Source of the DNA: Alcanivorax sp. DSM 26293
GTDB lineage: Bacteria > Pseudomonadota > Gammaproteobacteria > Pseudomonadales > Alcanivoracaceae
Direction: 5' to 3'
Length of the DNA stretch: 64,000 bases
Assembly (NCBI RefSeq): GCF_900107995.1
Contig: NZ_FNUM01000002.1
Coordinates: 146,283-210,282, forward strand
Both the position numbers and the translations under genes were made by a program. The stretch's first letter is position 1. The number at the start of each line of letters is the position of its first letter. Positions 12,563 through 57,250 of this stretch are shown here, one piece after another. The notes beneath the pieces were generated by a model, which was given only the letters and a program-made list of their open reading frames with translations, was not told the origin of the DNA and ran no database searches.

Positions 12563-12570
12563 GGTCAAGG

Positions 12571-12721
12571 CCTCAAGCTACAAGCTACAACGCGGCTCAA
12601 TCATGTTGGTATTTGAAACGTAAGAGGCCGCGCCCGAGTCCTGGGCGCGGCTTCATACGTTGGAAACCCTACATTCGTTTCTCGTGTTGTAGCTTGAGGC
12701 TTGTAGCTTGTAGCTTGCAGC
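12571..12721. repeat. Heptamer-arm inverted repeat around a terminator (locus T1)
   Basis: The left arm, 12571-12591, is three heptamers (CCTCAAG CTACAAG CTACAAC). The right arm, 12687-12721, is five (TTGTAGC TTGAGGC TTGTAGC TTGTAGC TTGCAGC). Bases 12570-12583 pair perfectly over 14 bp with 12687-12700. Between the arms is a terminator hairpin. The whole fills the gap between modC and the convergent Lgt-like gene, ending 3 bases before the latter's stop codon. Confidence 0.85.
12622..12653. terminator. Terminator hairpin of modC / Lgt-like gene
   Basis: GCCGCGCCC (12627-12635) pairs with GGGCGCGGC (12643-12651) around a 7-base loop. AAGAG on the left and TTC on the right are remnants of A/T flanks. 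The core is nearly the same as the hairpins at 26123-26157 and 53842-53877. Confidence 0.75.
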
Positions 12722-12724
12722 TGT

Positions 12725-13834
12725 TCAAGCTGCCGCCTTTCCCTCTCCCTTGCACCCTGCCTCTTCACAGCCTGCCTGGCTGCGCCAGTCAGCGGCCAGG
12801 CCGAAGCGAAGCTCCCCGGTGGTGATGGTGCTGGTGCCGGAAAAGAAGAACATGGTCACGGTGATCACCTGCAGACTGAGAATCACCCCCGGTGACCACA
12901 GAGCGCCCAGGCCTGCTGCCAGATCCGGTACCAGACCCGCATGGACCGGCAGTACCAGACTGATGACGATGCCGTAGAGTGCGGCAAAGAGGGCCATCAT
13001 CTGGTAGACGGAGAACAGCTTGCTGCCGCCTCGGTAGTCCGCCCGCAGTGTCTCTGAATAAACCCGCCACAACTGGCTTCCCACCAGGCTCAGGGCAAAG
13101 GCCAGGGCAAACTGCTGGTGGAAGAAGAGCGCGCTGCACAACAGGGCCAGAGCGGTGTACACCACGCAGGTGATTGCCTGGATGGGTATGACCTTCACTG
13201 CCTCCATTTCGCCGGCAAAGGCGATCTTCTTGGTCTTGCCGATAAACACATGATTCAAGGTGCTGAACAGGCGCTGAGCCCAGGACGGTGAATGTCTGAG
13301 CGCCTTGCCATAACAGCAGCCGAAACTGATGCAGGCCAGCCGGCCGATACCTTCACCCAACACATAGGCAATCGACATGGCCGCCAACATGGGCAGAATC
13401 GGCAGGGCCGTATCCCACCAGCGCTGGCTGGCCATATCCGCCAGCCAGAGAAACAGGGGAGCGATAATAATACCGACAAAGCTGGCGCCGCCCACGGTGA
13501 AACCATGGCGGTTCTTCTCAACCACAGTGGCGATGATCTTGGCGGCGGGCAGACAGATGGCAAGCACGCCCAGAGTGAGCAGCAGGGCGGTTCCCAGCGC
13601 AACGCCGGCGGATGCCGTCAAAAGAATAAAGGCAGCAACGCCGAGCCCCCCGGAGATGCCGGTGAACAACCCATAAAAGGTCAGGTTGAGGCCTTGCCAG
13701 GAGCCGTCACTGTTTTTTTTCAGGGGTAGCGAGGCCACGAATTGCCAGCGCTCTTCCGGTAGGTGACGGAACAGAAAGCGAAAGGTTACCCCGAACACCA
13801 GGGCACAGCCCAACAGAAACAGATCCGCAGCCAT
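12725..13834 (-). CDS. Lgt-like (prolipoprotein diacylglyceryl transferase superfamily) membrane protein
   Basis: 369 residues with about ten hydrophobic segments. The segment GEGIGRLACISFGCCYGK resembles the GR...GCCYG signature of the Cys-containing branch of the Lgt superfamily, not the Asn-rich GRxxNFIN signature of housekeeping Lgt. It probably transfers or binds a lipid, but it need not be the essential lipoprotein enzyme. A GAGGAG site lies 8 bases before the ATG at 13834, which I prefer to an upstream start at 13861. It is monocistronic and convergent with modC. The C-terminal tail is hydrophilic and contains two more cysteines. Confidence 0.65.
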   Translation of the reverse strand: MAADLFLLGCALVFGVTFRFLFRHLPEERWQFVASLPLKKNSDGSWQGLNLTFYGLFTGISGGLGVAAFILLTASAGVALGTALLLTLGVLAICLPAAKIIATVVEKNRHGFTVGGASFVGIIIAPLFLWLADMASQRWWDTALPILPMLAAMSIAYVLGEGIGRLACISFGCCYGKALRHSPSWAQRLFSTLNHVFIGKTKKIAFAGEMEAVKVIPIQAITCVVYTALALLCSALFFHQQFALAFALSLVGSQLWRVYSETLRADYRGGSKLFSVYQMMALFAALYGIVISLVLPVHAGLVPDLAAGLGALWSPGVILSLQVITVTMFFFSGTSTITTGELRFGLAADWRSQAGCEEAGCKGEGKAAA

Positions 13835-13944
13835 CAGCGAGCTCCTCAACGGTGGCGTCAACGAGGAGGATGGGGGTGGAACAGTGCGGAGGAATGACAG
13901 GCGCGTTACGATTGTGTGAAGGATGGGGGCGACACGTGGACGGG

Positions 13945-14202
13945 CTAGTCCCGATTACGGAGAAAACACTCGGCGGCCTGAACAATCAATTCCGTAACAG
14001 AACGGTCTTCCATCAGGGCCTGCATTTTCAGGCGTTTATGCAGATCGGCGGGGATGTCAGCGGTGAGGCGGCGATAGCCATCGCGAACGGCACCCGGACG
14101 CTGCGACTTCGCGGCTTTCTTCGCAGCCGGTTTGCGAGCGACGCCGTTACGCTTGCGGGGGCGTTGCTGCTCTTCAATAGTGACGAAATCGATCTGTTCC
14201 AT
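13945..14202 (-). CDS. Small basic ribbon-helix-helix DNA-binding protein
   Basis: 85 residues. A Lys/Arg/Ala-rich N-terminal tail (RKPAAKKAAKSQR) precedes an RHH fold: beta strand YRRLTADIP, then DLHKRLKMQALMEDRSVTELI and a final helix. This resembles ParG/CopG/Arc-type regulators. No toxin, parA or partner gene is adjacent. The start is uncertain because the frame is open to 14379 and the ribosome-binding site is weak. It is divergent from the GMC oxidoreductase gene and could regulate it; that is inference only. Confidence 0.6.
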   Translation of the reverse strand: MEQIDFVTIEEQQRPRKRNGVARKPAAKKAAKSQRPGAVRDGYRRLTADIPADLHKRLKMQALMEDRSVTELIVQAAECFLRNRD

Positions 14203-14353
14203 GGGTGCTGCAATGAGGCCGGCGAAGACAGTGGCCAGATTACTGGAAAGTGCCGCAAATAGACAGGATTGAGCGTTAATTTTATAGTGCAAAACCTTGA
14301 TTAAAATAGCGTTGTCGCAAAGGCAACGACAAGAAAAGGGGATGGGGGAGACG

Positions 14354-15922
14354 ATGGAAAATGTGGATGTCCTGATCATCGGCAGCGGCTTCGGTGGCTC
14401 GGTGATGGCCTGCCGTATGGCGGAGAAGGGAAGTCAGGTGGTCGTGCTGGAGCGGGGCCGGCGCTGGTTGCCTGAGGCCTATCCCTCGGTTTCCCAGCGA
14501 GACTGGTTCTGGGATGAGGACGAGCCTGAGAAACAGAACGGTTGGCTTGATTTTCGCTATTTCGGCGACATGAGTATCGCCACCGGTGCCGGCGTTGGCG
14601 GTGGTTCCCTGATTTACGCCAATGTCAGCATTGAGGCCAGACCCGAGGCCTTTGCGCAGGGCTGGCCCGAGGCCATCGACTACACCACCCTCAAGCCTCA
14701 TTACGACACCACCGGTGTCATGCTCAACGTCCAGGAGCTGCCGGCCAATCAGTGGACAGCACGAACCCACCTGATGAAAGAGGGGGCCGAGGCGGTGGGT
14801 GCCGGAGAGCGGTTTCGTATCGTTCCCCAGGCGATCACCTTCGATCCGGACTGGAGTCCGGAGCGTGATGATCCCTATGACTATGGCCACAGCCAATCCT
14901 GGGTGAACCCACAGGGCAAGACCCAGGGCACCTGTGTGCATTGCGGGAATTGCGATCTGGGTTGCCCGGTGCAAGCCAAGAACACCCTGGACATGAATTA
15001 CCTGGCGGCGGCGGAGAATGCCGGTGCCGATGTTCGTCCTCTGCATCATGTGCGCACCATTCGGGCTATGCAGGGCGGCGGCTATGAAGTGCTGGCCCGT
15101 GACCTGGAGGGTCATTGCTGGCGACGTTTCAAGGCGGAGAAAGTGATCGTGGCCGCCGGCTCCATGGGGTCCACGGAATTGCTGCTGCGCTGCCGGGATC
15201 AATACAAGACCTTGCCGAAACTCAGCCGCAAGCTGGGCCATAACTGGTCCTGCAATGGCGACTTTGCCACCATGGCTTTCTACGACGAGCGCCGGGTTTC
15301 GCCCACTCGCGGGCCCACCATCACCAGCGCCATCGACTATCTGGATGGCTCCGATGGCGGGGCGCGCTACTTTGTCGAAGATGGCGGCGTGCCGGATATC
15401 CTCGGCAGCTGGATGGAACGGCTGGGAAAAGATCCGCGATTCGCAGGTACCCGGCTGGGCGCTGCCATGGTCGAATACGGTGACAGCAGTGACCCCTTTG
15501 CGAAGATGATGCCCTGGTTCGGACAGGCCATGGATGATCCCGGCGGCCGTTTCTCTCTGGGGCGTCGTTGGTACTGGCCCTGGAAAAAAGACCGCCTGAA
15601 ACTGGACTGGGATTACCGCCAGGCAGAAAAAGCGGTGCAGGCCCTTGCCGACAGGCATCTGGCCCTGACCGCCGCCACTGGCGGCAAGCCCATGACTCCA
15701 GCCACATGGAACTGGTTCAAGGATCTGGTGACCCCTCACCCTCTGGGGGGCTGCAATATGGCGGATTCTGTGGAACAGGGCGTGGTAGATCACCGGGGAG
15801 AGGTGTTCAACTACCCCAATCTGTTTGTGATTGATGGTGCCATGGTGCCCCGTGCATTGGGCTTGAATCCGTCGCGGACCATCGCTGCACTGGCGGAATA
15901 TGCTGCCAGTCAGATGGGTTGA
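14354..15922 (+). CDS. GMC-family oxidoreductase with a four-cysteine motif
   Basis: 522 residues. FAD motif VLIIGSGFGGSVMACRMAEKG at the N terminus (as IIGSGFGGSV), the GMC signature GAGVGGGSLIYANVS, and the C-terminal PHPLGGCNM and ...NPSRTIAALAEYAA are those of cholesterol-oxidase-like and long-chain alcohol oxidases. Cys194, 197, 200 and 204 lie in CVHCGNCDLGC, which could hold an iron-sulfur cluster. It probably oxidises a fatty alcohol or sterol. Alternative starts at 14342 (ATG) and 14297 (TTG) exist; GGGAG is only 3 bases before 14354. Confidence 0.85.
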   Translation: MENVDVLIIGSGFGGSVMACRMAEKGSQVVVLERGRRWLPEAYPSVSQRDWFWDEDEPEKQNGWLDFRYFGDMSIATGAGVGGGSLIYANVSIEARPEAFAQGWPEAIDYTTLKPHYDTTGVMLNVQELPANQWTARTHLMKEGAEAVGAGERFRIVPQAITFDPDWSPERDDPYDYGHSQSWVNPQGKTQGTCVHCGNCDLGCPVQAKNTLDMNYLAAAENAGADVRPLHHVRTIRAMQGGGYEVLARDLEGHCWRRFKAEKVIVAAGSMGSTELLLRCRDQYKTLPKLSRKLGHNWSCNGDFATMAFYDERRVSPTRGPTITSAIDYLDGSDGGARYFVEDGGVPDILGSWMERLGKDPRFAGTRLGAAMVEYGDSSDPFAKMMPWFGQAMDDPGGRFSLGRRWYWPWKKDRLKLDWDYRQAEKAVQALADRHLALTAATGGKPMTPATWNWFKDLVTPHPLGGCNMADSVEQGVVDHRGEVFNYPNLFVIDGAMVPRALGLNPSRTIAALAEYAASQMG

Positions 15923-16025
15923 GGTTCGCCTGGGGCGCGCGCTCAAACCCCGCTGGACGATGACTGACCCTGCTGACCCAGATCGCCACATGGGGAAGGC
16001 AGCAACAACGAGAGAGGACGCCACA

Positions 16026-16595
16026 ATGGCCGACGCCCGTTTTCATATTGTGTTTACCGGTCAACTGGTGAAAGGCTCGGACCTTGCCACCGTGAAGGCC
16101 AACCTGGGAAAAATTTTCAAGATGGAGGCCCCGCGGGTGGAGAAGCTGTTCTCCGGCCAGCCTGTGGTGCTGAAAAAGGATGCGGATCAGGCCACTGCCA
16201 TGAAATTCCGGGCGGTACTGAAACAGGCCGGTGCCGAGTGCGAATTGCGCCCGGTGGCAGAAGCCGCGACGCCGCCGTCAGCCCCACAACCGTCGGCGCC
16301 TGTCCGTGACACGGCGGCCGCGGTCCGAACGGACAGCCAGGGGGATGCGCAGGCCTCAACGGGCGAGCTGGAAACGGTGGGCACGATCCGCACCGGTGGC
16401 ACCGGATTTTCCGGCGCTTTTTCTGTGGCGGAGGTTGGCGCAAAAATGGATAACAGCGACAAGAAGGCACCCCCGCCAGCACCGGATGTCAGCCACTTGA
16501 GCATGGCACAGGCCGGCGAGGTACTGGGTCAGAAAAAAGAGGAAAAAGCGCCCGTGGTTCCGGATATCAGCCACCTTTCCCTCAAGGATGACTGA
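16026..16595 (+). CDS. Conserved protein with an N-terminal small fold and a duplicated PD(V/I)SHLS tail motif
   Basis: 189 residues. The N-terminal about 75 residues (FHIVFTGQLVKGSD ... LFSGQPVVLKKD ... AGAECELRP) match a small domain I have seen at the N terminus of various gammaproteobacterial proteins, sometimes before membrane domains. A low-complexity Ala/Pro linker follows. Near the end the motif PDVSHLS and then PDISHLS occur about 30 residues apart. No catalytic motif is recognised. GAGAGGA precedes the ATG. It follows the GMC gene and is convergent with the DUF2914 gene, 19 bases away. Confidence 0.7.
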   Translation: MADARFHIVFTGQLVKGSDLATVKANLGKIFKMEAPRVEKLFSGQPVVLKKDADQATAMKFRAVLKQAGAECELRPVAEAATPPSAPQPSAPVRDTAAAVRTDSQGDAQASTGELETVGTIRTGGTGFSGAFSVAEVGAKMDNSDKKAPPPAPDVSHLSMAQAGEVLGQKKEEKAPVVPDISHLSLKDD

Positions 16596-16614
16596 GGCCT
16601 CCGGCCCGTCATGA

Positions 16615-17448
16615 TCAGGGGCTGGATGCGGACTGGAAGATCGGTTCGTTGCGATCGTCGCCCTCCAGCCGTTCCAGCAGTCTTTGCCGACTTTGCAGTG
16701 CCGGGTAAACTGGACTGTCGGGCGAGATCGAAATCTCCAGGGTCTGCATCAATTCCCGGGCACCATGGATATCCCGCTGGCGGATCATTCTCTCCAGTTG
16801 CGCAAAGGCTTCGTTATTCGTGGCCAGGGAATCAAGCGCGTTCTGTTGTTGCGGGTTGTCGGTGAGCTGGCGGGCACGGCGTATGGCCACCTTGGCTGCG
16901 CGGGTGTCACCAAGGTCAAGCAACTGTCGGATCACGTCGTAATGTTTACTGAGATCCACCGGTGAGGGATCCGCGCTTTCCGGCTCGGCGTGCCCCGAGG
17001 GGGCCGGTGGCGTGGCGTGTGCAGGCGCCATCTGGCTGGCAGCCCCATCCTCGCTCAGGGTCAGGGTCCAGGTTCCCAGCTGACAGCCACTTTGGGTAGA
17101 AACCTGGACCTGCCACTGACCGCCCACGGCCAGGTCAAGGCCGGCAAAGGTCTTCGATGACCAGGTGCGCCAGTAGTCCGAACCTACCGCCAGGGTGACA
17201 TCGACGATAGCGTCACCGTTGTAGGACCAGGTGTGATGCAGCTGCTGGCCATTGCCACCCTGGATGGCAGTGAAAAACAGCAGTTCATTGGCTGAAAGTG
17301 GGGCGGTTGCCAATGAGGAAACGGGTTCGCGATTTTCCACGTCGGTTGTGAAAGCCGCACTGACCAAGGTGGGGCAAGGGTTGTTGGTGGCTGTTTCAGC
17401 GAAGGCCAGTGCCGGAATCAGCAGGCCGGTGACAATGCAGATGCGCAC
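16615..17448 (-). CDS. DUF2914-domain secreted protein
   Basis: 277 residues from a GTG start with GGGGA 6 bases upstream. A signal peptide (about 17 residues, ending ALAFA) is followed by a DUF2914-like domain (about 25-130): AAFTTDVENREPV, HHTWSYNG and the hallmark WRTWSSKTF, then a Trp-containing end strand. A Pro/Ala/Glu linker leads to a helical region of about 110 residues rich in Gln, Arg and Leu. It is probably periplasmic; the role is unknown. The cysteine pair at about residues 25 and 115 could form a disulfide. Confidence 0.75.
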   Translation of the reverse strand: MRICIVTGLLIPALAFAETATNNPCPTLVSAAFTTDVENREPVSSLATAPLSANELLFFTAIQGGNGQQLHHTWSYNGDAIVDVTLAVGSDYWRTWSSKTFAGLDLAVGGQWQVQVSTQSGCQLGTWTLTLSEDGAASQMAPAHATPPAPSGHAEPESADPSPVDLSKHYDVIRQLLDLGDTRAAKVAIRRARQLTDNPQQQNALDSLATNNEAFAQLERMIRQRDIHGARELMQTLEISISPDSPVYPALQSRQRLLERLEGDDRNEPIFQSASSP

Positions 17449-17585
17449 CTTGATTTCCCCCCAGAGTGTTATCGGGCTGCCGCTTTGTAAGAAGCGTTTT
17501 TGGGATCGCGGCAGCGCTTACCTCAAGACTAGTCGGAGAGAAGCAACAAGGCGCAGAACTGTGTCACGTTAGCGGGGAAGGTTCC

Positions 17586-18131
17586 CTAAGCGGGGTCCTC
17601 TCCCTGATCAGGGCCATGGAATACCAGGTAGAGCTCTTCCAGAATCTCCGGAACACTCAGGGCCATTTGCCGGACAACCTGGGTGTTGTCCCAGAGCGTG
17701 TCCAGGGCTTCGTCATCATCCACGCCGGAGATCAGGATAAAGGGCAGCAGCAATTGCGCCATCTGTTCTTCATCGTCCTGGTACCAGGCTTGCTCATCCA
17801 CGAACACCCCGGTCATGAAGCCGGCACACCAGCTTGCCAGGTCCTGGCCGTCATCGTCCTGGTACGGGTCCAGCAGGCAGGGCAGGTTGATGGCATCGCC
17901 GCCCAGCAACTGGGTGACCAGCCGCTCTTTGAGACGGTTGAGGGCATCACAGACTTCCTCGGGAACCGGCATCTCCAGCTCCGCCGCATAGTCTACGGTC
18001 TCCGCCTCTGGTCCTACGGCCAGCGCGCATAACATGCCGTGGATTTCCGTCCAGGTGGGTGCGTCATCACCCTGGTCCTGGAAATATTGGCGAACGGTAT
18101 TTTTAAGGCTGGGATTGGTGATATCTGACAT
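17586..18131 (-). CDS. UPF0149 (YgfB/YecA-like) family protein
   Basis: 181 residues, acidic and helical. The motifs EIHGMLCALAVGP and DLASWCAGFMTGV, and the end HGP, are typical of the UPF0149 family; the metal-binding SEC-C tail of YecA is absent. P. aeruginosa members of this family affect alginate-type regulation through PprA/AlpA, which is family background only. GGAGG lies 6 bases before the ATG. It sits 68 bases downstream of the diguanylate cyclase on the same strand. Confidence 0.8.
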   Translation of the reverse strand: MSDITNPSLKNTVRQYFQDQGDDAPTWTEIHGMLCALAVGPEAETVDYAAELEMPVPEEVCDALNRLKERLVTQLLGGDAINLPCLLDPYQDDDGQDLASWCAGFMTGVFVDEQAWYQDDEEQMAQLLLPFILISGVDDDEALDTLWDNTQVVRQMALSVPEILEELYLVFHGPDQGEDPA

Positions 18132-18199
18132 GGAGTCCTCCGCTGGCCGCAAGCATACCGGGAGTTGTTCAGGGGCTCCAGGCATTCCCGGTGTTTGGC

Positions 18200-19387
18200 T
18201 CAGGGCAGGCTGATGATCCGGTCTCGGCCGTGGGATTTTGCCTCATACAAGGCGGTATCGGCCCGCTTGGTTAACTGATCCGCCGTTTCCCCTTCCTGAA
18301 AGGCGGTGAGACCGGCAGAAAAGGTCGTCTGTAGCGATGGAGCAAAATCGTAATGCTGTTCTGAAAACTGCTGGCGCAGGCGCTCAAGGGCCGCTTCGCA
18401 GGCGCTCTGCGAGGCATGGGGGAACAGCACCACAAATTCCTCTCCCCCGTAGCGGGCCAGCAGGTCCGACTTGCGCAGACTCTGGCTGGCGATCCGGCCA
18501 AAGCGGCTAAGGACTTCGTCGCCACTGTGATGGCCGTGGTTGTCGTTGACCTGCTTGAAATGGTCCAGGTCGATAATCGCCAGGTGGAGGCTGGTGTGGT
18601 TACGGTTGGCCAGGGAGATTTCCTCTTCCAGCCGTTCCAGGAAATGGCGGCGGTTGTACAGGCCGGTGAGATCATCGCGGACGGCAATGGCTTCCAGGCG
18701 TCGATGGGCGTCGCGCAGATTTTCCCGCTGGTCCCTGACCCGGGTCTGCAAATTGTGGATATAGCCCCCCATGTAAATGAACCAGCAGAGAATCAGGGCA
18801 AGAATGATCCAGTGTCCGATCAGAAACGAAAAAATGGCCTGCTGGGGGGTTTCCCGCCATTCGTAGATCTGTAGCAGGGTGAAACAGAGCAGGGTAAAAC
18901 CTGCCATGGCCATCTGGCGGCGCCGATCCAGGGCGAAGATGCCGAACGTCATGACCATGAAGTAGATGCTCAGCATGGCGCCGCGCAACTCCCGGGTGTA
19001 GTGAAGGATCACTGTGGTCAGTACGATCCCCGTGGCCATCTGCACAATGGTCAGGCTGGGGTCGGCGAAGCGCTCACTGAGCCCGCTGCGAATGATCAGG
19101 AAAAACACCAGATTGATGGCAAAAAGGACCGAAAAGAGGGTCAGGTGGGGGGTATCGGGAGCAAAGGCGCTGAGCTCGACACCGATGATGGTTCCCGCCC
19201 ACAACAGGCAATAGGAATAAAGAGCCATGATCTGGCGGCGCAGGCGGATGGCCCGTTCCGGTGGGTCGGCGGGGATCAGGGTAAACACGTAAGAAACACA
19301 ATCCTGTAGCTGGCCTGATGGCTTTTTTTCGACTTTACCGTTTTTCTCATCCCGGGTCACAGTGATGTCATTGTGAGAGGTAGACAT
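18200..19387 (-). CDS. Membrane-bound diguanylate cyclase
   Basis: 395 residues. Six hydrophobic segments (about 52-205) are followed by a short coiled linker and a GGDEF domain (about 230-392). The active site reads GGEEF, which is functional in known cyclases. RKSD five residues before it is an intact RxxD inhibitory site for product feedback, and DDLTGLYNRRHF begins the domain. It should make cyclic di-GMP at the inner membrane. The sensory membrane region resembles MASE-type domains but I cannot name it. Confidence 0.88.
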   Translation of the reverse strand: MSTSHNDITVTRDEKNGKVEKKPSGQLQDCVSYVFTLIPADPPERAIRLRRQIMALYSYCLLWAGTIIGVELSAFAPDTPHLTLFSVLFAINLVFFLIIRSGLSERFADPSLTIVQMATGIVLTTVILHYTRELRGAMLSIYFMVMTFGIFALDRRRQMAMAGFTLLCFTLLQIYEWRETPQQAIFSFLIGHWIILALILCWFIYMGGYIHNLQTRVRDQRENLRDAHRRLEAIAVRDDLTGLYNRRHFLERLEEEISLANRNHTSLHLAIIDLDHFKQVNDNHGHHSGDEVLSRFGRIASQSLRKSDLLARYGGEEFVVLFPHASQSACEAALERLRQQFSEQHYDFAPSLQTTFSAGLTAFQEGETADQLTKRADTALYEAKSHGRDRIISLP

Positions 19388-19459
19388 AAGCTGACAGACT
19401 GTGTTGCGTAAAACAATCGTTTGATTGGTTGTGTTAACCCGACACTCTGAGGCCAGACC

Positions 19460-20554: not shown

Positions 20555-20563
20555 GAGAGAGAC

Positions 20564-21757: not shown

Positions 21758-21773
21758 ATAGCGACAAGGCTGC

Positions 21774-21923
21774 TGTAGGAGCACCACTTGAGGTGCGAAC
21801 CGCACGCAGTGCGGGATTGACCAAAGGGCGATCAGGCGTTTCAGGGCTCGCCAGTTGTATGCAGGTTAGTCTGTAAGCTAAAGCATGCCACGGCCGGTTC
21901 GCGCCTCGAGAGGCGCTCCTACA
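21774..21923. repeat. REPIN-like inverted REP doublet, locus A
   Basis: The left unit, 21774-21801, reads TGTAGGAGCACC, loop ACTTGA, GGTGCGAACC. The right unit, 21896-21923, is the reverse complement type TGTAGGAGCGCC...GGCGCGAACC. The stems differ but stay paired. Between them are a second small hairpin (21801-21813) and a body containing AAGGGCGATCAGGCG (21824-21838), which recurs inverted at 31461-31475. It fills the 263-base gap before the SDR gene. Confidence 0.85.
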
Positions 21924-22020
21924 GCGGCTGTGTAGTTGGCGTATTTGGCGTTTCAGTCTTTGGATTTCCTGTCCATAGCATTACCCTTGCGGTGTCTTTT
22001 CACTTCAAGGAGCGTGTTAG

Positions 22021-26065: not shown

Positions 26066-26216
26066 CAGTGAATAATTAACAGTTAACAGCGACGCGTTCT
26101 CGTGTCGCGGTTCTTGAAAGCAAAGAGGCCGCGCCCAATCGTTGGGCGCGGCCTCTTGCGTTTTAATCCCTGCCTGTTGTTCGCCGCGTAACTGTTCACT
26201 GTTAACTATTCACTGA
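26062..26216. repeat. Heptamer-arm inverted repeat around a terminator (locus T2)
   Basis: Left arm 26062-26089: TTAACAG TGAATAA TTAACAG TTAACAG. Right arm 26189-26216: TAACTGT TCACTGT TAACTAT TCACTGA. Extended arms 26066-26096 and 26185-26215 are complementary at 27 of 31 positions. The left arm contains the glcB stop codon and the right arm contains the stop codon and last codons of the convergent gene. Confidence 0.88.
26123..26164. terminator. Strong bidirectional terminator between glcB and the convergent gene
   Basis: A perfect 16-bp stem, AAGAGGCCGCGCCCAA (26123-26138) with TTGGGCGCGGCCTCTT (26142-26157), around a 3-base loop. TTTT follows 3 bases later. It sits between the arms of repeat T2. 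Confidence 0.9.
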
Positions 26217-42891: not shown

Positions 42892-42931
42892 AAGCAATTG
42901 ATAGTTGATAATTGACAGTTGAAAACGAGAA

Positions 42932-42965
42932 ACGAAAAAACCCGGCAAAGCCGGGTTTTTCGTCA
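42932..42965 (+). terminator. clpA terminator
   Basis: ACGAAAAAACCCGGC pairs with GCCGGGTTTTTCGT apart from one bulged A, around AAA. It has A and T tracts on both sides, so it could act in both directions. Confidence 0.9.
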
Positions 42966-43026
42966 GGAATAGATGTTAAGCAAGGGGGCCTGCACCTCTG
43001 CAGGTTTCCGCAAAACATAGAAAAAG

Positions 43027-43066
43027 AAAATACCCCTGGCTCACGAAGAGGCAGGGGTATTTTTTT
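43027..43066 (-). terminator. infA terminator
   Basis: AAAATACCCCTG (43027-43038) pairs with CAGGGGTATTTT (43052-43063) around 13 bases, followed on the plus strand by further T and flanked on the minus strand by TTTTCTTTTT. The position suits termination of infA. Confidence 0.88.
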
Positions 43067-43104
43067 AGCTATCAATTGTCAATTATCAACTGTCAATTGA
43101 AGGC

Positions 43105-44992: not shown

Positions 44993-44995
44993 GGC

Positions 44996-45976
<981 letters not shown>

Positions 45977-48568: not shown

Positions 48569-48580
48569 CAAGGAGTTTCA

Positions 48581-49195: not shown

Positions 49196-50523
49196 ACGAC
49201 CTGTTCGCCACCGACGCTGCCCGGCAGGCACAGCCCCTGGCGGCACGCCTGCGTCCCACCTCGCTGGACGAGTACGTGGGGCAGCAGCATCTGGTGGGCG
49301 ACGGCAAACCTTTTCGCCAGGCACTGGAGCGGGGTCAACTGCATTCCATGATCCTGTGGGGGCCGCCGGGGACCGGCAAGACCACCCTGGCGTTGATTCT
49401 GGCCCAGGCGGTGGATGCGGCCTTTATCACGCTTTCCGCAGTGCTATCCGGGGTCAAGGATATCCGCGCGGCGGTGGAACAGGCGCAGGTCCGCCTGGGC
49501 CAGGGGCGGCGCACGGTCCTGTTCGTGGACGAGGTGCACCGCTTTAACAAGGCCCAGCAGGACGCCTTCCTGCCCCATGTGGAAGAGGGCACCATCACCT
49601 TTATCGGTGCCACCACGGAAAATCCCTCTTTCGAGCTCAACAACGCCTTGCTGTCCCGGGCCCGGGTCTACCGACTGCGCTCACTGACCGCGGAGGACCT
49701 GCACGGTTTGCTTTCCCGGGCCCTGGCGGACCCGACCCTGAAAGGCATGGAGCTTGACGGTGATGCTCGCCAGCTATTGCTCAACTACGCCGATGGTGAT
49801 GCCCGGCGATTGCTGAATATGCTGGAAGTGGCGGCGGATCTGGCTGACGGCGAATCCCCGGTCATCGATGCGGCGCTGATGCGGGAAGTGCTTCGCGATG
49901 CGGTGCGTCGGTTCGACAAGGGCGGGGATCTGTTTTATGACCAGATCAGCGCGCTGCACAAATCCGTTCGCGGGTCTGATCCGGATGCGGCGCTGTACTG
50001 GTTTGCGCGCATGCTGGACGGTGGCTGTGACCCCCTGTACATTGCCCGCCGCGTGGTGCGCATGGCCAGTGAAGAAGTGGCCAATGCTGACCCCAGAGCG
50101 CTGACGCTTTGCCTTCAGGCCTGGGATGTGCAGGAGCGGCTGGGCAGCCCGGAAGGTGAGCTGGCCATCGCCCAGGCCATTGCTTACCTGGCTGTGGCGC
50201 CCAAGAGCAATGCGGTTTACAAGGCCTATAACCAGGCCCGGGCGCTGGTACGTGAGCACCCCACCGATGAGGTGCCACTGCATCTGCGCAATGCGCCCAC
50301 CCAGTTGATGAAAGATGAAGGCTTCGGTGCCGAGTATCATTACGCCCACGATTTTCCGGATGCCTTTGTGGCTGGCGAGAACTACTTTCCGCCCAGCCTC
50401 AGCAGGACCCGCTTGTACGAACCGGTGAACCGGGGGCTGGAAATCAAGGTGTCGGAAAAGCTGGCGCGTCTGCGCGAGCTGAACCAGCAAAGTGACTGGC
50501 AACGCTACGGGGACGAGTCATGA
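49192..50523 (+). CDS. rarA: RarA/MgsA, replication-associated recombination ATPase
   Basis: 443 residues. Walker [10 protein letters not shown] (57-65), Walker [20 protein letters not shown] and sensor 1 [14 protein letters not shown] are the clamp-loader-like AAA+ motifs of RarA/WRNIP1; the C-terminal tetramerisation part ([19 protein letters not shown]) is present. It acts at stalled forks. It overlaps lolA and crcB by 4 bases each. Confidence 0.95.
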
Positions 50524-50912
50524 ATATGGCAACCCTGGCGCCCTGGCTGGCTGTTGCCGGCGGCGGAGCTCTTGGTGCCAGCCTGCGTTTTGCCACTACG
50601 CTGTGGATCGGTGTGCCGACCATGCCGACCTGGCCCTGGGCCACCTTCGGGGTGAATCTGGTGGGCAGTTTTTTGTTCGGCTTTCTGGCGGTGGCTCTGG
50701 CCAGCCTGCCGGTGGGTGAGCTCTGGCGGCTGGCGTTGATGACCGGCATGCTCGGCGCGTTGACCACGTTTTCCACCTTCTCCTTCGAACTGGTTCGATT
50801 GGTGGAAGTGAAGGCCTACGGGATGGCGGCTGGATATGCCCTGGCGTCGGTGCTGGTCTGTTTTTGTCTCGGTGGGCTGGGGTTGCTGCTGGGACGGTTG
50901 GTGTTCGAGTAA
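50520..50912 (+). CDS. crcB: CrcB/Fluc fluoride channel
   Basis: 130 residues with four membrane helices. [19 protein letters not shown] and TTFSTFSFE (the Phe-box and central Na site region) are the family signatures. It exports fluoride as a dual-topology dimer. The start overlaps rarA (ATGA). No fluoride riboswitch is expected or seen, since it is inside an operon. Confidence 0.93.
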
Positions 50913-50923
50913 CGATTGCCTGA

Positions 50924-52375
<1,452 letters not shown>

Positions 52376-52407
52376 CACGCTCCCGGTCATTGAAACAGGG
52401 AGCAATC

Positions 52408-53799
52408 ATGGAATTCCTGCCAATCAGCTGGCGTCTGCAGGGCAAATCGGCCCTGTTGGTGGGGGGCGGCGAAGTGGCCCTGCGTAAGGGGCGTCTCCTG
52501 CACCGATCTGGCGCAAAGGTGAATGTGGTTGCGCCTGAAGTGTGCGCAGAATTGTGCGACATCGTGGCGCAGAGTGGCGGTGAGTGTGTTGAGCGTGCCT
52601 TTGAATCCGGCGATCTGACCGGTCAGGCTTTGGTCATTTGTGCCACTGACGATGGGTCCGTGAATGCCTCGGTGGCACAATTGGCCCAGGAAAAAGGCCT
52701 GCCGGTGAATGTGGTGGATAACCCGTCTCTGGGAGATTTCATCTTTCCGGCTATCGTGGACCGTTCCCCGGTGCTGATCAGTATCAGTTCCTCCGGGGCC
52801 TCGCCGGTACTGGCGCGCAAGCTGCGCAATCAGCTGGAGTCTGCGTTGCCGGCTCGCTGGGGCCGCCTGGCTGACCTGATGGCCCGGTTCCGCCAACCCC
52901 TCAAGGACAAACTCAAGAGCGTGGGCGCCCGCCGCCTGTTCTGGGAGCAGGCCCTGGAAGGTCCCCTGGTCGAAAAAGTCATGGCCGGCAAGGACAGCGA
53001 AGCCGAAGCCATGCTCAGCGAAGCCATCGAGCAGGCCGATGCAGCCCGCTTGAGCCGTGGTGAGGTCTACCTGGTGGGCGCCGGTCCCGGCGACCCGGAC
53101 CTGCTTACTTTCCGCGCCCTGCGCCTGTTGCAGAAAGCCGATGTGGTCCTCTATGACCGTCTGGTGGGACAGGGCATCGTGGATCTGGCCCGGCGGGATG
53201 CGGAACTGGTTTACGTGGGCAAGGCACGGGACAAACACGCCTTGCCCCAGGACAATATCAACGAACTGCTGGTCCATTACGCCAAACAGGGCAAGAAAGT
53301 GTGCCGGCTGAAAGGGGGAGACCCCTTTATCTTTGGCCGCGGCGGCGAGGAAATTGACCTGATCGTGGCGGAGGGCATCGACTTTCAGGTGGTGCCGGGG
53401 ATTACTGCCGCCAGTGGGTGTGCCGCCTATGCCGGTATTCCGTTGACCCACCGTGACCATGCCCAGTCCGTGCGCTTCGTTACCGGCCATCGCAAGGATG
53501 GGACCGTTACCCTTGACTGGGAGCACCTGGTCAGTGAAACGGAGACCGTGGTCTTCTACATGGGGCTGGTGGGGCTGCGACAGATCTGCACTGAGCTGAT
53601 GGAACACGGTCGAGCCGGCGACACGCCCATCGCCCTGGTGTCCCGCGGCACTACCAACCTGCAGGAAGTGATCACCGGTACCCTCGATAGCCTGCCGGAT
53701 CAGATTGAAGGTCGCGAGGTTCATGCGCCGACCTTGATCATTGTTGGCAGTGTGGTGAGCCTGCATTCGCAGTTTGAATGGTTCGGGAAGGGTAATTAA
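52408..53799 (+). CDS. cysG: CysG, multifunctional siroheme synthase
   Basis: 463 residues. N-terminal Met1-about 210: dehydrogenase/ferrochelatase with [18 protein letters not shown]-terminal part: uroporphyrinogen III methyltransferase with [21 protein letters not shown] (quoted as [12 protein letters not shown]) and the [16 protein letters not shown] loop. It makes siroheme for sulfite or nitrite reductase. GGGAG precedes the ATG. Its TAA lies in the left arm of repeat T4. Confidence 0.96.
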
Positions 53800-53934
53800 T
53801 AGTTAATAGTTACGCGGTCACGCGTATGGGGTTTTCAGACAAAGAAGCCGCGACCATAGCCATGGTCGCGGCTTCTTGCTTTCAAAACAGACGGGCCATC
53901 TCTCGTCGTTATTAATTATTCATTATTAATTGCC
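53794..53934. repeat. Heptamer-arm inverted repeat around a terminator (locus T4)
   Basis: Left arm 53794-53814: AATTAAT AGTTAAT AGTTACG. Right arm 53907-53934: CGTTATT AATTATT CATTATT AATTGCC. Allowing a 3-base gap, 18 of 21 left-arm bases are complementary. The left arm holds the cysG stop; the right arm encodes the last residues (LIMNN) and stop of ybiB. Confidence 0.85.
53842..53877. terminator. Bidirectional terminator between cysG and ybiB
   Basis: A perfect 16-bp stem AAGAAGCCGCGACCAT / ATGGTCGCGGCTTCTT around AGCC. Its A-rich left and T-rich right ends fit both directions. It has the same GCCGCG core as the hairpins of T1 and T2. Confidence 0.88.
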
Positions 53935-54913
53935 TTTTCCTGTTCTGCCACAACTCACGTGCCAGCTCCTGTGCTTCTTCCAGCGAAGCCGCCCGGTCCA
54001 GTCCCCATAGCGCTACCGCTACGGTCTGGATCACTGCGTTTTCGCCATAGTCATCGCTCTGCTCGCCACGCCATACCGCCAGCACGGTTTGTGCATCCGG
54101 CTCGCCAGGGGGGCTTTGCCGTGGCATGACGTTATCCAGAACGGCTGCGCCTTCCAGATGTTCGCCATGTCGGATGCCGGTGATCTGGGTGCGCGCATCC
54201 GGGCGGATTTCCAGTTCGCCGCCTTCGCCCTTGAATAACAGCAGGTCCTGATCACCCGCCAGGTCGGCGGCACCCTGGTGCAGCTCGATGTAGGCGGGAT
54301 GGAAAACGCTCTGCATGGACAGGGGCGCTTTGGCCGGATTGAGACTTCTCGCCAGCGTATTGATGGGGGAGCGCAGGCCAAGTAAGTAGCGCAGGGTCAG
54401 CAGGTGCGATAGTGGCGCGCAGAAAGTCTCCAGCGGCAGATACGCCAGGCCATACTGATCCAGATGGGCGGCGGCGGCCTGTGGAGAATCGGCCACCGGC
54501 AGCCCCAGTTGTGGCAACAGCTGGTCACTGTAGACCCGGTTCGGGGTATGGGCGGGCCCGCCATGAAGCAGGGTGCGGATGCCCTGGCTAGCCAGTAACA
54601 ATGCTGCCAGCAGATACCAGGGGTGGTGCTTTTTCTTGCCCGCGTAGCTGGGCCAGTCAAGCTGCACGTCCGGCAGGTCGGCCAGCGCCCGGTAACACAC
54701 CGGACGGCAGGCATCCAGAAAGCCGGCCAGCTCCTCGGGCGTTTCTTCCTTTACCCGTAGCAGCATCAGGAAGGCGCCAAGTTGAATGTCTTCCACCTGG
54801 CCATCGAGAATGGCCTGCATGGCTTCCCGGGCTTCCTCCCGCGTGAGACTGCGCCGTGCCCGTTTACCGCGGCCAAGTGTGCGTACAAAAGGGGCAAAAG
54901 CATGTTCAGTCAT
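53912..54913 (-). CDS. ybiB: YbiB/TrpD2-like glycosyl transferase-family nucleic-acid-binding protein
   Basis: 333 residues with the anthranilate phosphoribosyltransferase fold: SLTREEAREAMQAILDG near the start, and LLHGGPAHTPNRVYSDQLLPQLG (quoted as LHGGPAHTPNR) in place of the PRPP loop. E. coli YbiB lacks the enzyme activity and binds DNA/RNA. Typically found beside siroheme or DsrE/Tus genes, as here. The final codons come from the repeat arm T4. GAGG lies some bases upstream of the ATG region. Confidence 0.82.
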   Translation of the reverse strand: MTEHAFAPFVRTLGRGKRARRSLTREEAREAMQAILDGQVEDIQLGAFLMLLRVKEETPEELAGFLDACRPVCYRALADLPDVQLDWPSYAGKKKHHPWYLLAALLLASQGIRTLLHGGPAHTPNRVYSDQLLPQLGLPVADSPQAAAAHLDQYGLAYLPLETFCAPLSHLLTLRYLLGLRSPINTLARSLNPAKAPLSMQSVFHPAYIELHQGAADLAGDQDLLLFKGEGGELEIRPDARTQITGIRHGEHLEGAAVLDNVMPRQSPPGEPDAQTVLAVWRGEQSDDYGENAVIQTVAVALWGLDRAASLEEAQELARELWQNRKRQLIMNN

Positions 54914-54992
54914 GGTTAGCCTCGTGGATGCCCGTCACTTCAGGCTGGGAAGGGTGCATGTTGCGTGAAGCGTACGACGAGTGAGCGCGATA

Positions 54993-55244
54993 TCAATACC
55001 AACTGGTACAGGGGCCATGTTCGGCGACCAGCTCCAGCAACCGGGCGTGGTCAATAACAGGCAAGGTGTTGTCCGGCAGAGCCAGTGCGGAGTGCTGCAG
55101 CAAATAGCCTTCGCCTTTCAGTGCGAAGCCGGAAGCGCACAGCAGGCCGGCATCGCTGAACACGCAGATATCGCCGTCACGATACAGGGTCTCGAATGTC
55201 TGCCGTTGGGGACTGTGCGGGGGAAAACCGATCAGATGAATCAT
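54993..55244 (-). CDS. tusB: TusB/DsrH-like sulfur relay protein
   Basis: 83 residues. IHLIGFPPHS start, GDICVFSDAGLL and the C-terminal HGPCTSWY match DsrH/TusB. TusBCD accepts persulfide sulfur from TusA and passes it to TusE and MnmA (mnmA is at 32199). It starts 4 bases after tusC. The start is set at 55244 by the family N terminus; the ribosome-binding site is weak. tusE is not in the window. Confidence 0.83.
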   Translation of the reverse strand: MIHLIGFPPHSPQRQTFETLYRDGDICVFSDAGLLCASGFALKGEGYLLQHSALALPDNTLPVIDHARLLELVAEHGPCTSWY

Positions 55245-55248
55245 CGCT

Positions 55249-55551
55249 TCAGAACACCACAACCTGAGCGCACTGGTCGCGCAGCCTCAGCAAGGATTGA
55301 GAGTCCAGCGTCTCTACCGGGACTGGCGTCACTGGCGCAAGACTGTCAGTGACACAGCGTACGCCAAAGTCGGGGAGCTGTGCCAGAGCGTCGCTGGGTG
55401 CCCGTTGCAGCTGAGACAGGGACGCTTCGGTGAGCCACAGGATCGTGGGCTGGCCAAAGGCTGCCCCGGTTAACAGCATATCCAGGGTTTCCTGAAACTG
55501 GCTGGAAAGCGGCGCACTGCCGGTGGCGATGTAGAGAATCGGGTTAGCCAA
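55249..55551 (-). CDS. tusC: TusC/DsrF-like sulfur relay protein
   Basis: 100 residues from a probable TTG that overlaps the end of tusD (8 bases); the frame is open to 55584. ILYIATGSAPLSSQFQETLDMLL and GAAFGQPTILWLTEA correspond to the TusC core (APYGS...ALD and AAF). DFGVRCVTDS holds the only internal Cys. The start is the least certain in the operon. Confidence 0.8.
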   Translation of the reverse strand: MANPILYIATGSAPLSSQFQETLDMLLTGAAFGQPTILWLTEASLSQLQRAPSDALAQLPDFGVRCVTDSLAPVTPVPVETLDSQSLLRLRDQCAQVVVF

Positions 55552-55903
55552 ACTGAATGACCCGGTCGCTGTTGATAAGAGCATCGGCCCACTGGCCCAG
55601 ACCGGCCAGAGTAAAGCCCTCTGCCAGGGTATCCGGTACCACGCCCCGTCGCTGGGCTGCGCCTACACAAACCACTGCATCAACAGGGTTTTCAGCCAGC
55701 CATTGCTGCCATTGTTGCGCGGCACAGGCCTGATCGCCGTCGCCACGCCAGGCATGACGGTTGGCCAGGTGCACGGCGTCACGGTAGAAGAAAAGTCGGT
55801 ACAGATGGAAGTTGGGGTGGGCCAGTAATGCCCGGGCAGTATCAAGGGCAGTCAGTGCGGCGGCGGAATCCGCCGCCGCATTGACCAGAAGGGCAAACCG
55901 CAT
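55544..55903 (-). CDS. tusD: TusD/DsrE-like sulfurtransferase
   Basis: 119 residues. RFALLVNAAADSAAALTALD at the start and VCVGAAQRRGV, with the persulfide-carrying Cys, are TusD hallmarks. It is the catalytic subunit of the TusBCD hexamer. The ATG overlaps the yccA stop (TGATG). Order tusD-tusC-tusB is the usual one. Confidence 0.9.
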   Translation of the reverse strand: MRFALLVNAAADSAAALTALDTARALLAHPNFHLYRLFFYRDAVHLANRHAWRGDGDQACAAQQWQQWLAENPVDAVVCVGAAQRRGVVPDTLAEGFTLAGLGQWADALINSDRVIQFG

Positions 55904-56583
55904 CAATCATCGCCACCAAGGGCGGTGAGCAGGTGCAGCAGAGACATGAAGAGGTTATACAGGGACACGAACAGAGTTACCGTGGCCATGATGTAGTTGG
56001 TCTCGCCGCCGTGAATAATGGCGCTGGTCTGCCACAGGATCAGCATTGAGGACAGCAATACGAAAGCGGCGGAGATCGCCAGGGCCAGTGCGGGTATGGC
56101 GAAGAAAATATTGGCGATTGCCGCAATAAAAGCCACCAGAATACCGACCATGATGAAATTGGTCATGAAACTGAAGTCTTTCTTGGTCACCAGAGCGATG
56201 GCTGACATGGCCACGAAGATGCCTGCAGTGCCGCCCAGGGCCATGGTTACGATTTCCATGCCGCCCGGCATTTGCGCGTACATGTTGATGATCGGGCCAG
56301 TCGTAAAGCCCAGCCAGCCGGTCAAACCGAATACGGCCAGAATGCCCCAGGCGCTGTTGCGGAGCATGTTGGTAGCGAAAAGCAGACCAAAGTACACGCC
56401 GAGGGTCAGCCAGACGTTAACAAAGCCGATGTTGCTGGCCATGGCAAACCAGGAGGCGCCGGTGGCCACAATCAGTGACAGCCCCAGCAGCATGTAGGTG
56501 TTCTTCAATACCTGGGCCGCGCGCTCCCCGGTGACGGCTACGCCGTGCGGAGAGACGGAATAGGGGTTGGTCTGGTTATTCAT
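55903..56583 (-). CDS. yccA: Bax inhibitor-1 family membrane protein (YccA-like)
   Basis: 226 residues with seven membrane segments from about residue 28 on. The family segments LKNTYMLLGLSLIVA, TGWLGFTTGPIINMY and SLYNLFMSLLHLLTALGG are present, with the conserved Asp region near the end. E. coli YccA is a substrate and modulator of FtsH. A promoter is seen at 56618-56645. It is coupled to tusD by a 1-base overlap. Confidence 0.93.
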   Translation of the reverse strand: MNNQTNPYSVSPHGVAVTGERAAQVLKNTYMLLGLSLIVATGASWFAMASNIGFVNVWLTLGVYFGLLFATNMLRNSAWGILAVFGLTGWLGFTTGPIINMYAQMPGGMEIVTMALGGTAGIFVAMSAIALVTKKDFSFMTNFIMVGILVAFIAAIANIFFAIPALALAISAAFVLLSSMLILWQTSAIIHGGETNYIMATVTLFVSLYNLFMSLLHLLTALGGDD

Positions 56584-56617
56584 GTGTTTGCACTCATCCT
56601 TAGGAATTGTCCCTGTG

Positions 56618-56645
56618 ATAATAAGGGCGGTAACGCCAAAATCAA
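56618..56645 (-). promoter_or_regulatory. Probable yccA-tusDCB promoter
   Basis: On the minus strand: TTGATT (56640-56645), 16-base spacer, TATTAT (56618-56623), 35 bases before the yccA ATG. The spacer contains GGCG-TTAC-CGCC, a small inverted repeat that could be an operator. Confidence 0.6.
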
Positions 56646-56716
56646 GCGAAGAAACAAGGCATAAAGGTCGATTTTTTATGGGTCCGACGGGGGATCAGGG
56701 CAGGGCGGGCGCTACA

Positions 56717-56738
56717 GCCGTTTTTCGACCAAAACGGC
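56717..56738. repeat. Perfect 8-bp inverted repeat in the yccA-tRNA-Ser gap
   Basis: GCCGTTTT (56717-56724) and AAAACGGC (56731-56738) around TCGACC. It could be a terminator-like hairpin or a binding site. Apart from this and the two promoters, the 418-base gap 56584-57001 shows no gene I can support. Confidence 0.55.
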
Positions 56739-56960
56739 GCCGCAACGGGGTTGATCCGAATCGGCAAAGGCATCGGGTTTTGCTATGACTGAACAAATGC
56801 TGATCGGCAGTGGCAGTCTCTCAAAGACAGGGAAGCGTTGATGAGGCGGCTACCCATGTGCAGTGTGGCTGATTGTTCCCGATTTAGTGAGGAGATGATT
56901 GAGTTGGCCCCGCAGCTGATTAACTTTCCACCAGTTGCAGCGAGGATTTGCGAAGCGCGA

Positions 56961-56988
56961 TTGACTGACTTCATTGCTCATGTATTAT
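56961..56988 (+). promoter_or_regulatory. tRNA-Ser promoter
   Basis: TTGACT (56961-56966), 16-base spacer and TATTAT (56983-56988), followed by GCGGGCC just before the tRNA: a GC-rich discriminator typical of stringently controlled stable-RNA promoters. Confidence 0.75.
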
Positions 56989-57001
56989 TGCGGGCCTGTC
57001 T

Positions 57002-57089
57002 GGAGGGGTGGCAGAGTGGCCGAATGCACCGGTCTTGAAAACCGGCGACGGGAGACCGTCCGTGGGTTCAAATCCCACCCCCTCCGCCA
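57002..57089 (+). tRNA. tRNA-Ser (anticodon UGA)
   Basis: 88 bases including an encoded CCA. Acceptor GGAGGGG pairs with CCCCTCC; anticodon stem CCGGT/ACCGG encloses CTTGAAA with anticodon TGA at 57036-57038; the long variable arm (CGGGAGACCG type) marks a class II Ser tRNA; T arm GTGGG-TTCAAAT-CCCAC. It reads UCA and other UCN codons. Confidence 0.97.
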
Positions 57090-57097
57090 AACAAGAA

Positions 57098-57128
57098 GCC
57101 CGTGCTCGCAAGAGCGCGGGCTTTTTTT
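57098..57128 (+). terminator. tRNA-Ser terminator
   Basis: GCCCGTGCTC (57098-57107), loop GCAA, GAGCGCGGGC (57112-57121): ten pairs with one G-T, then seven T. It starts 9 bases after the CCA end. Confidence 0.93.
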
Positions 57129-57167
57129 ATGGCCAATCGGGCGACGAAACCGACGACGGAGCGGTAG

Positions 57168-57237
57168 CGAGTTACGAGTTACGAGGAGCAAAAGTCGAAG
57201 CTGGTTTTGATTTTCGCTCCTCGTAAATCGTAACTCG
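57168..57237. repeat. Heptamer-arm inverted repeat (locus T5)
   Basis: Left arm 57168-57188: CGAGTTA CGAGTTA CGAGGAG. Right arm 57217-57237: CTCCTCG TAAATCG TAACTCG. The 22-base arms (57168-57189 and 57216-57237) pair with one mismatch around 26 bases containing AAAAG...TTTT. It lies between the tRNA terminator and the convergent ArsA-like gene; here the terminator is outside the arms. Confidence 0.88.
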
Positions 57238-57250
57238 AAAACCTGCGTGT

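Follow-up and report, generated by a model that had tools for sequence, protein, structure and literature searches.

Introduction

The intervening sequence (IVS) in the 23S rRNA gene of Coxiella has a 28-bp terminal stem, tandem heptamers, and an open reading frame (ORF) for the S23p protein, and it is excised by RNase III (PMC4990558). The heptamers lie upstream of the S23p ORF and vary in number among strains, and RNase III cuts at the first repeat (PMC4990558). In the portions of that source that we draw on, IVS mobility is described as proposed long ago and unproven, and S23p/IVP proteins as having solved structures (the X. campestris protein, cited therein, is a pentamer) and no known function (PMC4990558). 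Here, we analyze a stretch of 64,000 nucleotides (hereafter, the window) from Alcanivorax sp. DSM 26293 (contig NZ_FNUM01000002.1, positions 146,283 to 210,282), for which a preliminary description had noted inverted arms of imperfect tandem heptamers at five long junctions between converging genes. Outside the window, arms of this kind bracket genes of the S23p/IVP family (PF05635), and we consider it likely that the window features are ORF-less (miniature) members of IVS-type selfish element families whose heptamer arms are recognized by IVP.

The elements share with 23S rRNA IVSs terminal inverted repeats of ~28 bp with tandem heptamers, an S23p ORF, and sense orientation in the host transcript (PMC4990558), but they differ in lying behind mRNA stop codons, in being mostly ORF-less, and in occurring in many copies per genome and in many heptamer types (flavors). 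They also resemble the GGGAATC and GGGGA(C/T)T repeats of Xanthomonas and Nostoc, i.e., heptamers with a preference for four units that form inverted pairs and lie 0 to 50 bp from, or overlap, a stop codon on the coding strand; two Xanthomonas genomes hold 70 and 75 inverted GGGAATC pairs, which lie close to stop codons or overlap them (Rehm et al. 2015, PMC4692102). That study treated them as G-quadruplex repeats that as a rule do not accompany mobile elements, and the parts of that paper that we draw on name no partner gene (PMC4692102); unlike them, the window flavors are not G-rich. REPIN/RAYT systems likewise combine miniature hairpin elements, genome-specific types, and a linked trans-acting gene (PMC3116915), whereas the partner here is a four-helix-bundle protein and the arms are heptamer arrays rather than repetitive extragenic palindromic (REP) hairpins. 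The TAACTGA heptamers of Beggiatoaceae, Cyanobacteria, and Bacteroidetes are similar in forming dispersed intergenic sets of few units but, in the portions considered, mostly direct and upstream of start codons, with one inverted repeat reported (MacGregor 2015, PMC4679880); that text contains none of the terms S23, four helix, and intervening. PF05635 also resembles Avd of diversity-generating retroelements, and homology has been suggested by sequence and structure comparison (PMC10053308). Our search of the open-access literature (subscription papers and preprints lay outside it) found no paper that connects IVP genes to dispersed heptamer repeats. The view that such a class lacks any formal description has to be qualified by the Xanthomonas heptamer pairs (PMC4692102).

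Results

Heptamer arms bracket PF05635 genes

We sampled 864 kb of the same genome (23% of 3.7 Mb), in which two long-span arm pairs enclose an ORF that matches both PF05635 and TIGR02436, namely C7:197135-197788 (AGCTACA) and C12:45786-46251 (AGTTGAC). Their E values against PF05635 are 1.3e-31 and 1.2e-25, and the spans of the IVP-enclosing arm pairs are 466 and 550 to 654 bp. The linked gene, which had escaped the preliminary description, lies outside the window. Within the family, PF05635 was found in 29 of 46 genomes (16/17 of this genus, 12/13 of the next genus, and 1/16 of the rest), as compared with 0/14 control genomes. We examined the PF05635 flanks at 64 family loci, of which 62 were retained after removal of two repeats (L295 of L269, and L328 of L274), together with 80 control ORFs of similar length, of which 79 were retained as one was the genome's own IVP gene. 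Flanking inverted repeats with a score of at least 16 were present at 58/62 PF05635 loci versus 1/79 control ORFs, and period-7 arrays lay on both sides of the gene at 48/62 versus 0/79 (raw control counts, 2 and 1 of 80).

In the full element, the S23p/IVP gene is enclosed by terminal inverted repeats of ~28 to 30 bp, and each repeat consists of about four imperfect units of 7 bp. The miniature has the same kind of arms, spans mostly ~160 bp, lacks the gene, and often contains a terminator-like hairpin; dispersed elements and IVP elements of the same genome have arms in common. An IVS-like stem, i.e., terminal inverted repeats of ~28 bp, is found both at the 58 of 62 IVP loci and in the window arms. 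The window elements lie between called genes rather than in an rRNA gene (an Rfam scan of the window returned one tRNA only) and have no room for an S23p/IVP ORF, which makes them ORF-less relatives and not IVSs proper. Being short, dispersed, devoid of an ORF, and bounded by terminal inverted repeats, elements of the window type resemble miniature inverted-repeat transposable elements in these respects; with tandem heptamers near or over the stop codon on the coding strand, in inverted pairs, they also match the Xanthomonas/Nostoc type. As to the element ends, an inner C[TG].AAA box occurs at 29/44 IVP-element ends and 12/55 dispersed-element ends, and a CGCG box at 17/55 dispersed-element ends versus 0/44 IVP-element ends.

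Around IVP genes we distinguished ~16 flavors (our grouping), and the heptamer flavor goes with the IVP variant. More specifically, arm similarity tracks IVP protein identity over 77 loci (Mantel r 0.69, permutation 0/2000; L295, L328, inverted-repeat scores <16, and proteins <100 amino acids left out), reaching at least 0.6 in 93% of pairs with >80% protein identity and in at most 7% of pairs with <60%. IVP has the direction of the upstream gene at 58 of 63 loci with an upstream gene called (two repeat loci included), against a baseline of ~74% tandem junctions in the sample, and the 5' arm begins at most 10 bp from the upstream stop at 41/56 IVP loci (median, 5.5 bp); as 23 of the IVP loci represent one orthologous site, these position and orientation cases are not independent. 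Among IVP relatives in the PDB, class 1 is represented by 2gsc (Xanthomonas XCC0516) and class 2 by 2rld.

A REPIN-type family moved by RAYT, a Y1 transposase, would follow a similar logic of palindromic miniatures, genome-specific types, and a linked gene, and REP-like TGTAGGAGC pairs do share gaps with heptamer arrays. However, the gene inside the arms is PF05635 and not a transposase (no search was aimed at RAYT genes), and the REP-like pairs are separate elements of different sequence; we regard this explanation as very improbable. In C10, in C7 (L005-L024), and in the window gap 50913-51082, gaps with heptamer arrays also contain further long intergenic palindromes, namely the REP-like pairs of the form TGTAGGAGC..GCTCCTACA, GTAGGGTGCACTGAGC.. 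palindromes, and GTTGGAGC.. pairs, and at some junctions these palindromic elements take the place at which heptamer elements are found in other species.

Arrays co-occur with IVP, and one post-stop site holds different elements

Class-2 IVP, a class that we split off by profile match and that agrees with genomic position, was found in 24 of the 30 genomes that represent two genera. Counts of AGTKRAY arrays are 0 to 421 in genomes with class-2 IVP versus 0, 0, 0, 0, 3, and 5 in those without (Mann-Whitney U test, p 2e-4, an optimistic value since the genomes share ancestry). Low counts despite class-2 IVP were found in G002 (0, the single zero, with 93 AATKRAD matches) and G008 (9). Flavor patterns were counted in 32 of the 46 family genomes, and holdings differ sharply among them; in the 16 of these, from two genera, that were used in per-flavor tests, IVP and flavor agreed for AGTKGAY (p 0.002) and AATKRAD (p 0.01).

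In 24/24 genomes carrying class-2 IVP, the gene lies between two genes that we take, from their translated sequences, to be glyA and nrdR. Relative to the copies in our genome, GlyA and NrdR are 88 to 99% identical and IVP is 67 to 99% identical; our own element starts 6 bp past the glyA stop. Where class-2 IVP is missing, the gap holds an AGTTGAA-type miniature (G019 and G022), a CAGGATT-type miniature (G020, G021, and G026), or a degenerate sequence (G001). Among 11 genomes of other genera, 9 gaps measure 39 to 101 bp when counted as far as an aligned residue inside NrdR; the remaining two, in G044 and G045, are long and devoid of heptamers. Thus, one post-stop position is held by different elements in different species and is mostly empty outside these genera.

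Period-7 arrays lie behind stop codons at all junction types

To place the window elements in their genomic context, we scanned 464 kb, made up of the window and a further 400 kb of this genome, at an array score of at least 10. Period 7 yielded 11 arrays in convergent gaps, 27 in tandem gaps, and 4 in divergent gaps versus 1 inside genes, as compared with 0 or 1 intergenic array for each of periods 5, 6, 8, 9, 10, and 11. Of periods 5 to 11, only period 7 shows a clear intergenic excess, and this excess over the control periods indicates that the arrays are not a product of chance. In the 864-kb sample, arrays occupy 23/62 convergent, 35/217 tandem, and 5/82 divergent gaps of at least 100 bp, whereas control periods 5, 6, 8, 9, and 10 occur in 1 to 10 gaps in all. 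The restriction to convergent ends that had been proposed from the window does not survive these counts, as arrays are present in tandem and divergent gaps and 39/62 long convergent gaps lack one; even within the window, an array in the tandem gap 50913-51082 had been missed. That the arrays make up a defined class of elements, as proposed, is supported; the tie to convergent junctions is not.

Array frequency grows with the number of gene 3' ends bordering a gap, and the elements directly follow stop codons and are oriented in sense with the upstream mRNA. AG-type arms are closer to the left gene in 17/18 convergent cases (median, 3 bp inside the gene end) and reverse-type arms are closer to the right gene in 12/13; 6 convergent arrays could not be oriented. 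Paired-arm elements (n = 33) have a median length of 161 bp (range, 73 to 466), with 20/33 measuring 149 to 170 bp, and the longest contains the IVP gene. We rejected the possibility that the heptamers provide stop codons in all frames, as inspection by eye showed several flavors to be free of stops when read in mRNA sense.

This position could also be that of 3'-end elements useful to the host, in which arms and hairpin would act as a terminator or RNA-end protector and IVP would be a domesticated RNA-binding protein with the arms as its co-evolving sites. Consistently, of the arrays in gaps bordering a 3' end, 27/98 touch the stop codon and 47/98 lie within 6 bp of it; the one element folded as RNA (26066-26205) is strongly structured (z = -8.0 versus shuffles); class-2 IVP is kept at glyA-nrdR in two genera, with changes in both its sequence and its arms; and the position of junction 2 holds a canonical terminator in some species and a heptamer element in others. 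In contrast, G001, a genome of the same genus without IVP, has nearly no arrays of the flavors counted, junctions lose or swap elements, and canonical terminators occur in 5/23 convergent gaps with arrays and 10/39 without, so that the elements do not stand in place of canonical terminators. Overall, we judge a host function of this kind to be rather unlikely. A block to read-through, as suggested earlier, is conceivable in view of the fold of 26066-26205. For a supercoil, gyrase, or cruciform role, suggested earlier, no evidence turned up, and no dedicated search was made.

Arms match within a gap and flavors behave as families

The two arms of a gap match each other in inverted orientation with a score of at least 12 in 42/66 array gaps versus 9.5% of cross-locus pairs (permutation 0/2000), and only 2/66 gaps reach this score in direct orientation. 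The proposal that each locus has its own heptamer is thereby upheld as regards agreement between arms but not as regards uniqueness, since flavors recur and a gap's own partner is the single best match in 5/66 cases and among the top three in 25/66. Ordered unit triplets common to different arrays number 129 versus an order-shuffled mean of 32 (maximum 60 of 500 shuffles); flavors thus behave as families.

Comparison of orthologous junctions, as had been suggested, revealed arm covariation: at 17 loci where two or more genomes had two arrays each (gaps with fewer than two arrays dropped; 108 junctions had an ortholog in the genus and family), arms matched at 17.8 within a genome versus 12.5 across genomes (permutation 0/5000). 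Taken singly, none of the four window junctions between coding sequences was significant (4, 7, 5, and 3 genomes compared; permutation p 0.38, 0.14, 0.05, and 0.83). At C7:148902, heptamer arms or their remnants are present in all nine genomes compared, in at least five flavors, and a counterexample to covariation is provided by G013 and G015, in which the clpA-infA arms are unlike. Flavor change by simple slippage or homogenization was rejected, as unit order is kept across flavors (e.g., C7:113624, G000 versus G016).

Covarying arms could also arise as a mutational by-product, with 7-bp slippage building the arrays and template switching across hairpins, known as quasi-palindrome correction, copying one arm to the other without any trans-acting factor. 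Long exact arrays do exist, including ~24 units in the G004 left arm of junction 1, whose partner is lost, and two runs of ~12 units at C7:197.6 kb. Heptamers are, moreover, the commonest long repeats in most genomes of one survey (Mrazek 2007, as cited in PMC4679880). However, array presence across genomes follows the IVP gene, arrays bracket PF05635 ORFs and not random ORFs, unit triplets are shared in order as described above, and element length peaks near 160 bp; taken together, these features leave a purely mutational origin quite improbable.

PF05635 flanks beyond the family

PF05635 is present in 52 of 299 Pseudomonadota genomes (E <= 0.001), and in 48 of these the match exceeds the curated cut-off. 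In two sets of 30 and 20 such loci, which share one locus (49 distinct loci), the best flank period is 7 at 28/30 and 17/20 loci versus 33/148 control genes, the latter taken from our own array-rich genome, and flanking inverted repeats score at least 16 at 21/30 and 12/20. By our count from the listings, period-7 scores of at least 7 occur on both sides at 30/49 distinct loci versus 3/148 control genes. In two genomes, PF05635 ORFs are bracketed by one GGGAATC and one GGGATTC arm pair, respectively, i.e., by the Xanthomonas heptamer of Rehm et al. (L384 and L386). PF05635 also matched 22 plasmid records; of the 17 loci examined, which are mainly cyanobacterial, 15 have inverted flanks of at least 16 and 10 have arrays on both sides, counts that include some low-complexity sequence and have no control set. 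Annotated plasmid IVP copies adjoin coding sequences. PF05635 lies among CRISPR genes on three cyanobacterial plasmids (L338, L345, and L348), in the order cas6-IVP-cas4 twice and cas10-IVP-cmr3 once, with clear heptamer arms at two of the three. An apparent 8-bp unit was noted at IVP flanks of L340 (by eye), L394, and L396; among the plasmid loci, that of Gemmatirosa has the look of an 8-mer. No phage match was obtained with one IVP protein as query at E 1e-5. Heptamer arrays are absent or rare in the clpA stretches of named genomes: 80 loci (1.53 Mb) yielded 7 period-7 arrays versus 6 at period 8 and 8 at period 11, and inverted heptamer arms were recorded there for Pseudomonas carbonaria and Halomonas eurihalina only.

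Anatomy of the window elements

Inverted arms of imperfect heptamers can be read directly at all five junctions singled out earlier, and four of the five pass the array threshold; at 53800-53911 the arms are visible by eye but fall below it. Read in mRNA sense from the gene end inwards, the units begin AG[TC].. or AAT... At junction 5 (57090-57250), the left side is a tRNA and its terminator rather than a coding sequence. Table 1 lists the features; the genes at junction 3, named from their sequences, are presumably clpA and an infA-like gene.

Table 1. Heptamer arms and hairpins in the window
Feature	Positions	Strand	Basis
Junction 1 left arm, AGCTACA flavor	12574..12590	+	period-7 array
Junction 1 central GC hairpin	12619..12659	.	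direct reading
Junction 1 right arm, AGCTACA flavor; adjoins stop of minus-strand gene	12692..12722	-	period-7 array
Junction 2 left arm, AGTTAAC/AGTGAAT flavor; overlaps stop codon	26057..26089	+	period-7 array
Junction 2 central hairpin, GAGGCCGCGCCC...GGGCGCGGCCTC	26119..26165	.	direct reading
Junction 2 right arm, AGTTAAC/AGTGAAT flavor; overlaps stop codon	26191..26214	-	period-7 array
Junction 3 left arm, AGTTGAT/AATTGAC flavor; after stop of presumed clpA	42898..42922	+	period-7 array; orthologs
Junction 3, two canonical terminator-like hairpins between arms	42934..43066	.	direct reading
Junction 3 right arm, AGTTGAT/AATTGAC flavor; after stop of presumed infA-like gene	43072..43099	-	period-7 array
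Junction 4 left arm, AGTTAAT flavor, below array threshold; overlaps stop	53794..53813	+	direct reading; orthologous arrays
Junction 4 central hairpin, GAAGCCGCGACCATAG...CATGGTCGCGGCTTC	53840..53878	.	direct reading
Junction 4 right arm, AATTAAT/AATGAAT flavor	53907..53933	-	direct reading
Junction 5 left arm, AGTTACG flavor; after tRNA and its terminator	57168..57185	+	period-7 array; Rfam tRNA match
Junction 5 right arm, AGTTACG flavor	57221..57240	-	period-7 array
Single heptamer array, ACGCCAG type, in tandem gap 50913-51082	51028..51059	-	period-7 array

In orthologs of the tandem gap 50913-51082, two-armed AGCTACA-, AGTTGAA-, or AGTTTCA-type elements stand at the same spot, and a bare mini-palindrome is found in G001, G008, and G010. 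The clpA-infA junction of G034 (L182) carries a two-armed GTCGGAC element, a heptamer that also flanks IVP genes in other genomes.

Discussion

The bracketing of PF05635 genes by heptamer arms, the co-occurrence of arrays with IVP across genomes, and the arm covariation suggest how such elements may behave. The stem of heptamer units would be the recognition site of the IVP pentamer, and IVP acting in trans would allow elements to spread into post-stop sites or to replace one another there. RNase III probably acts on the RNA stem, as it does in rRNA IVSs; if so processed, an insertion behind a stop codon would do little harm, and the elements may persist at these positions because they are tolerated there. 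Flavor turnover would then reflect element replacement or joint change with IVP.

Several observations weigh against this interpretation. Binding of IVP to heptamer arms is itself something that we infer, and the correlation between arms and protein could be explained by common descent of gene and arms alone. Some IVPs have no clear arms (L272, L292, and L326), and some matched arm pairs have no IVP: in our genome, the long-span pairs at C7:148.9-151.3 and C22:23.1-24.8 kb (apparently neighboring elements) and, of five long-span pairs from other genomes, three (L329-L331), the gene being present in the other two (L297 and L316). Agreement between IVP and flavor is only partial (AGCYNCA, p 0.06; AGTTNMA, p 0.09): G015 has 485 AGCYNCA matches and G003 has 129 AATKRAD matches without a matching IVP, G005 has 6 AATKRAD matches despite one, and G034 has GTCGGAC arrays yet no PF05635 match. 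Many orthologous junctions hold an element at the same spot but of different flavor, which requires replacement or in situ rewriting, as plain insertion is insufficient. Finally, we found no insertion with clean ends or a target duplication, the empty-site comparison having given no well-aligned empty site.

Two stricter rules were set aside. That every long-span arm pair is an IVP element is refuted by L329-L331, and a cognate rule demanding an IVP in the genome for every dispersed flavor fails as AGCYNCA and AGTTNMA miss p < 0.05. In L329 (G002:C28), the AATTGAT arms (352-385 and 871-898) lie ~550 bp apart with no IVP-like ORF in between, and the pair may be a decayed element or one that carries different cargo.

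Beyond the family, it is entirely possible, and we tentatively propose, that S23p/IVP is the trans-acting partner of mobile elements with heptamer arms that are widespread in Pseudomonadota, Cyanobacteria, and other groups. Such a two-part system would do without a transposase and would consist of a pentameric helical-bundle protein and a heptamer code that change in step across the genome, and many "simple" bacterial heptamer repeats would be its traces. Heptamer repeats have so far been attributed to slippage or G-quadruplexes, and IVSs have had no established route of spread; the present elements would link this puzzling class of repeats in bacteria to one partner protein that is open to testing. 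If the bracketing means recognition, the function of IVP, the spread of IVSs, and the heptamer repeats become one question, testable with a protein of ~110 residues, its arm sequence, and natural flavor pairs, and small elements would have a way to occupy post-stop positions within operons, cyanobacterial CRISPR operons among them.

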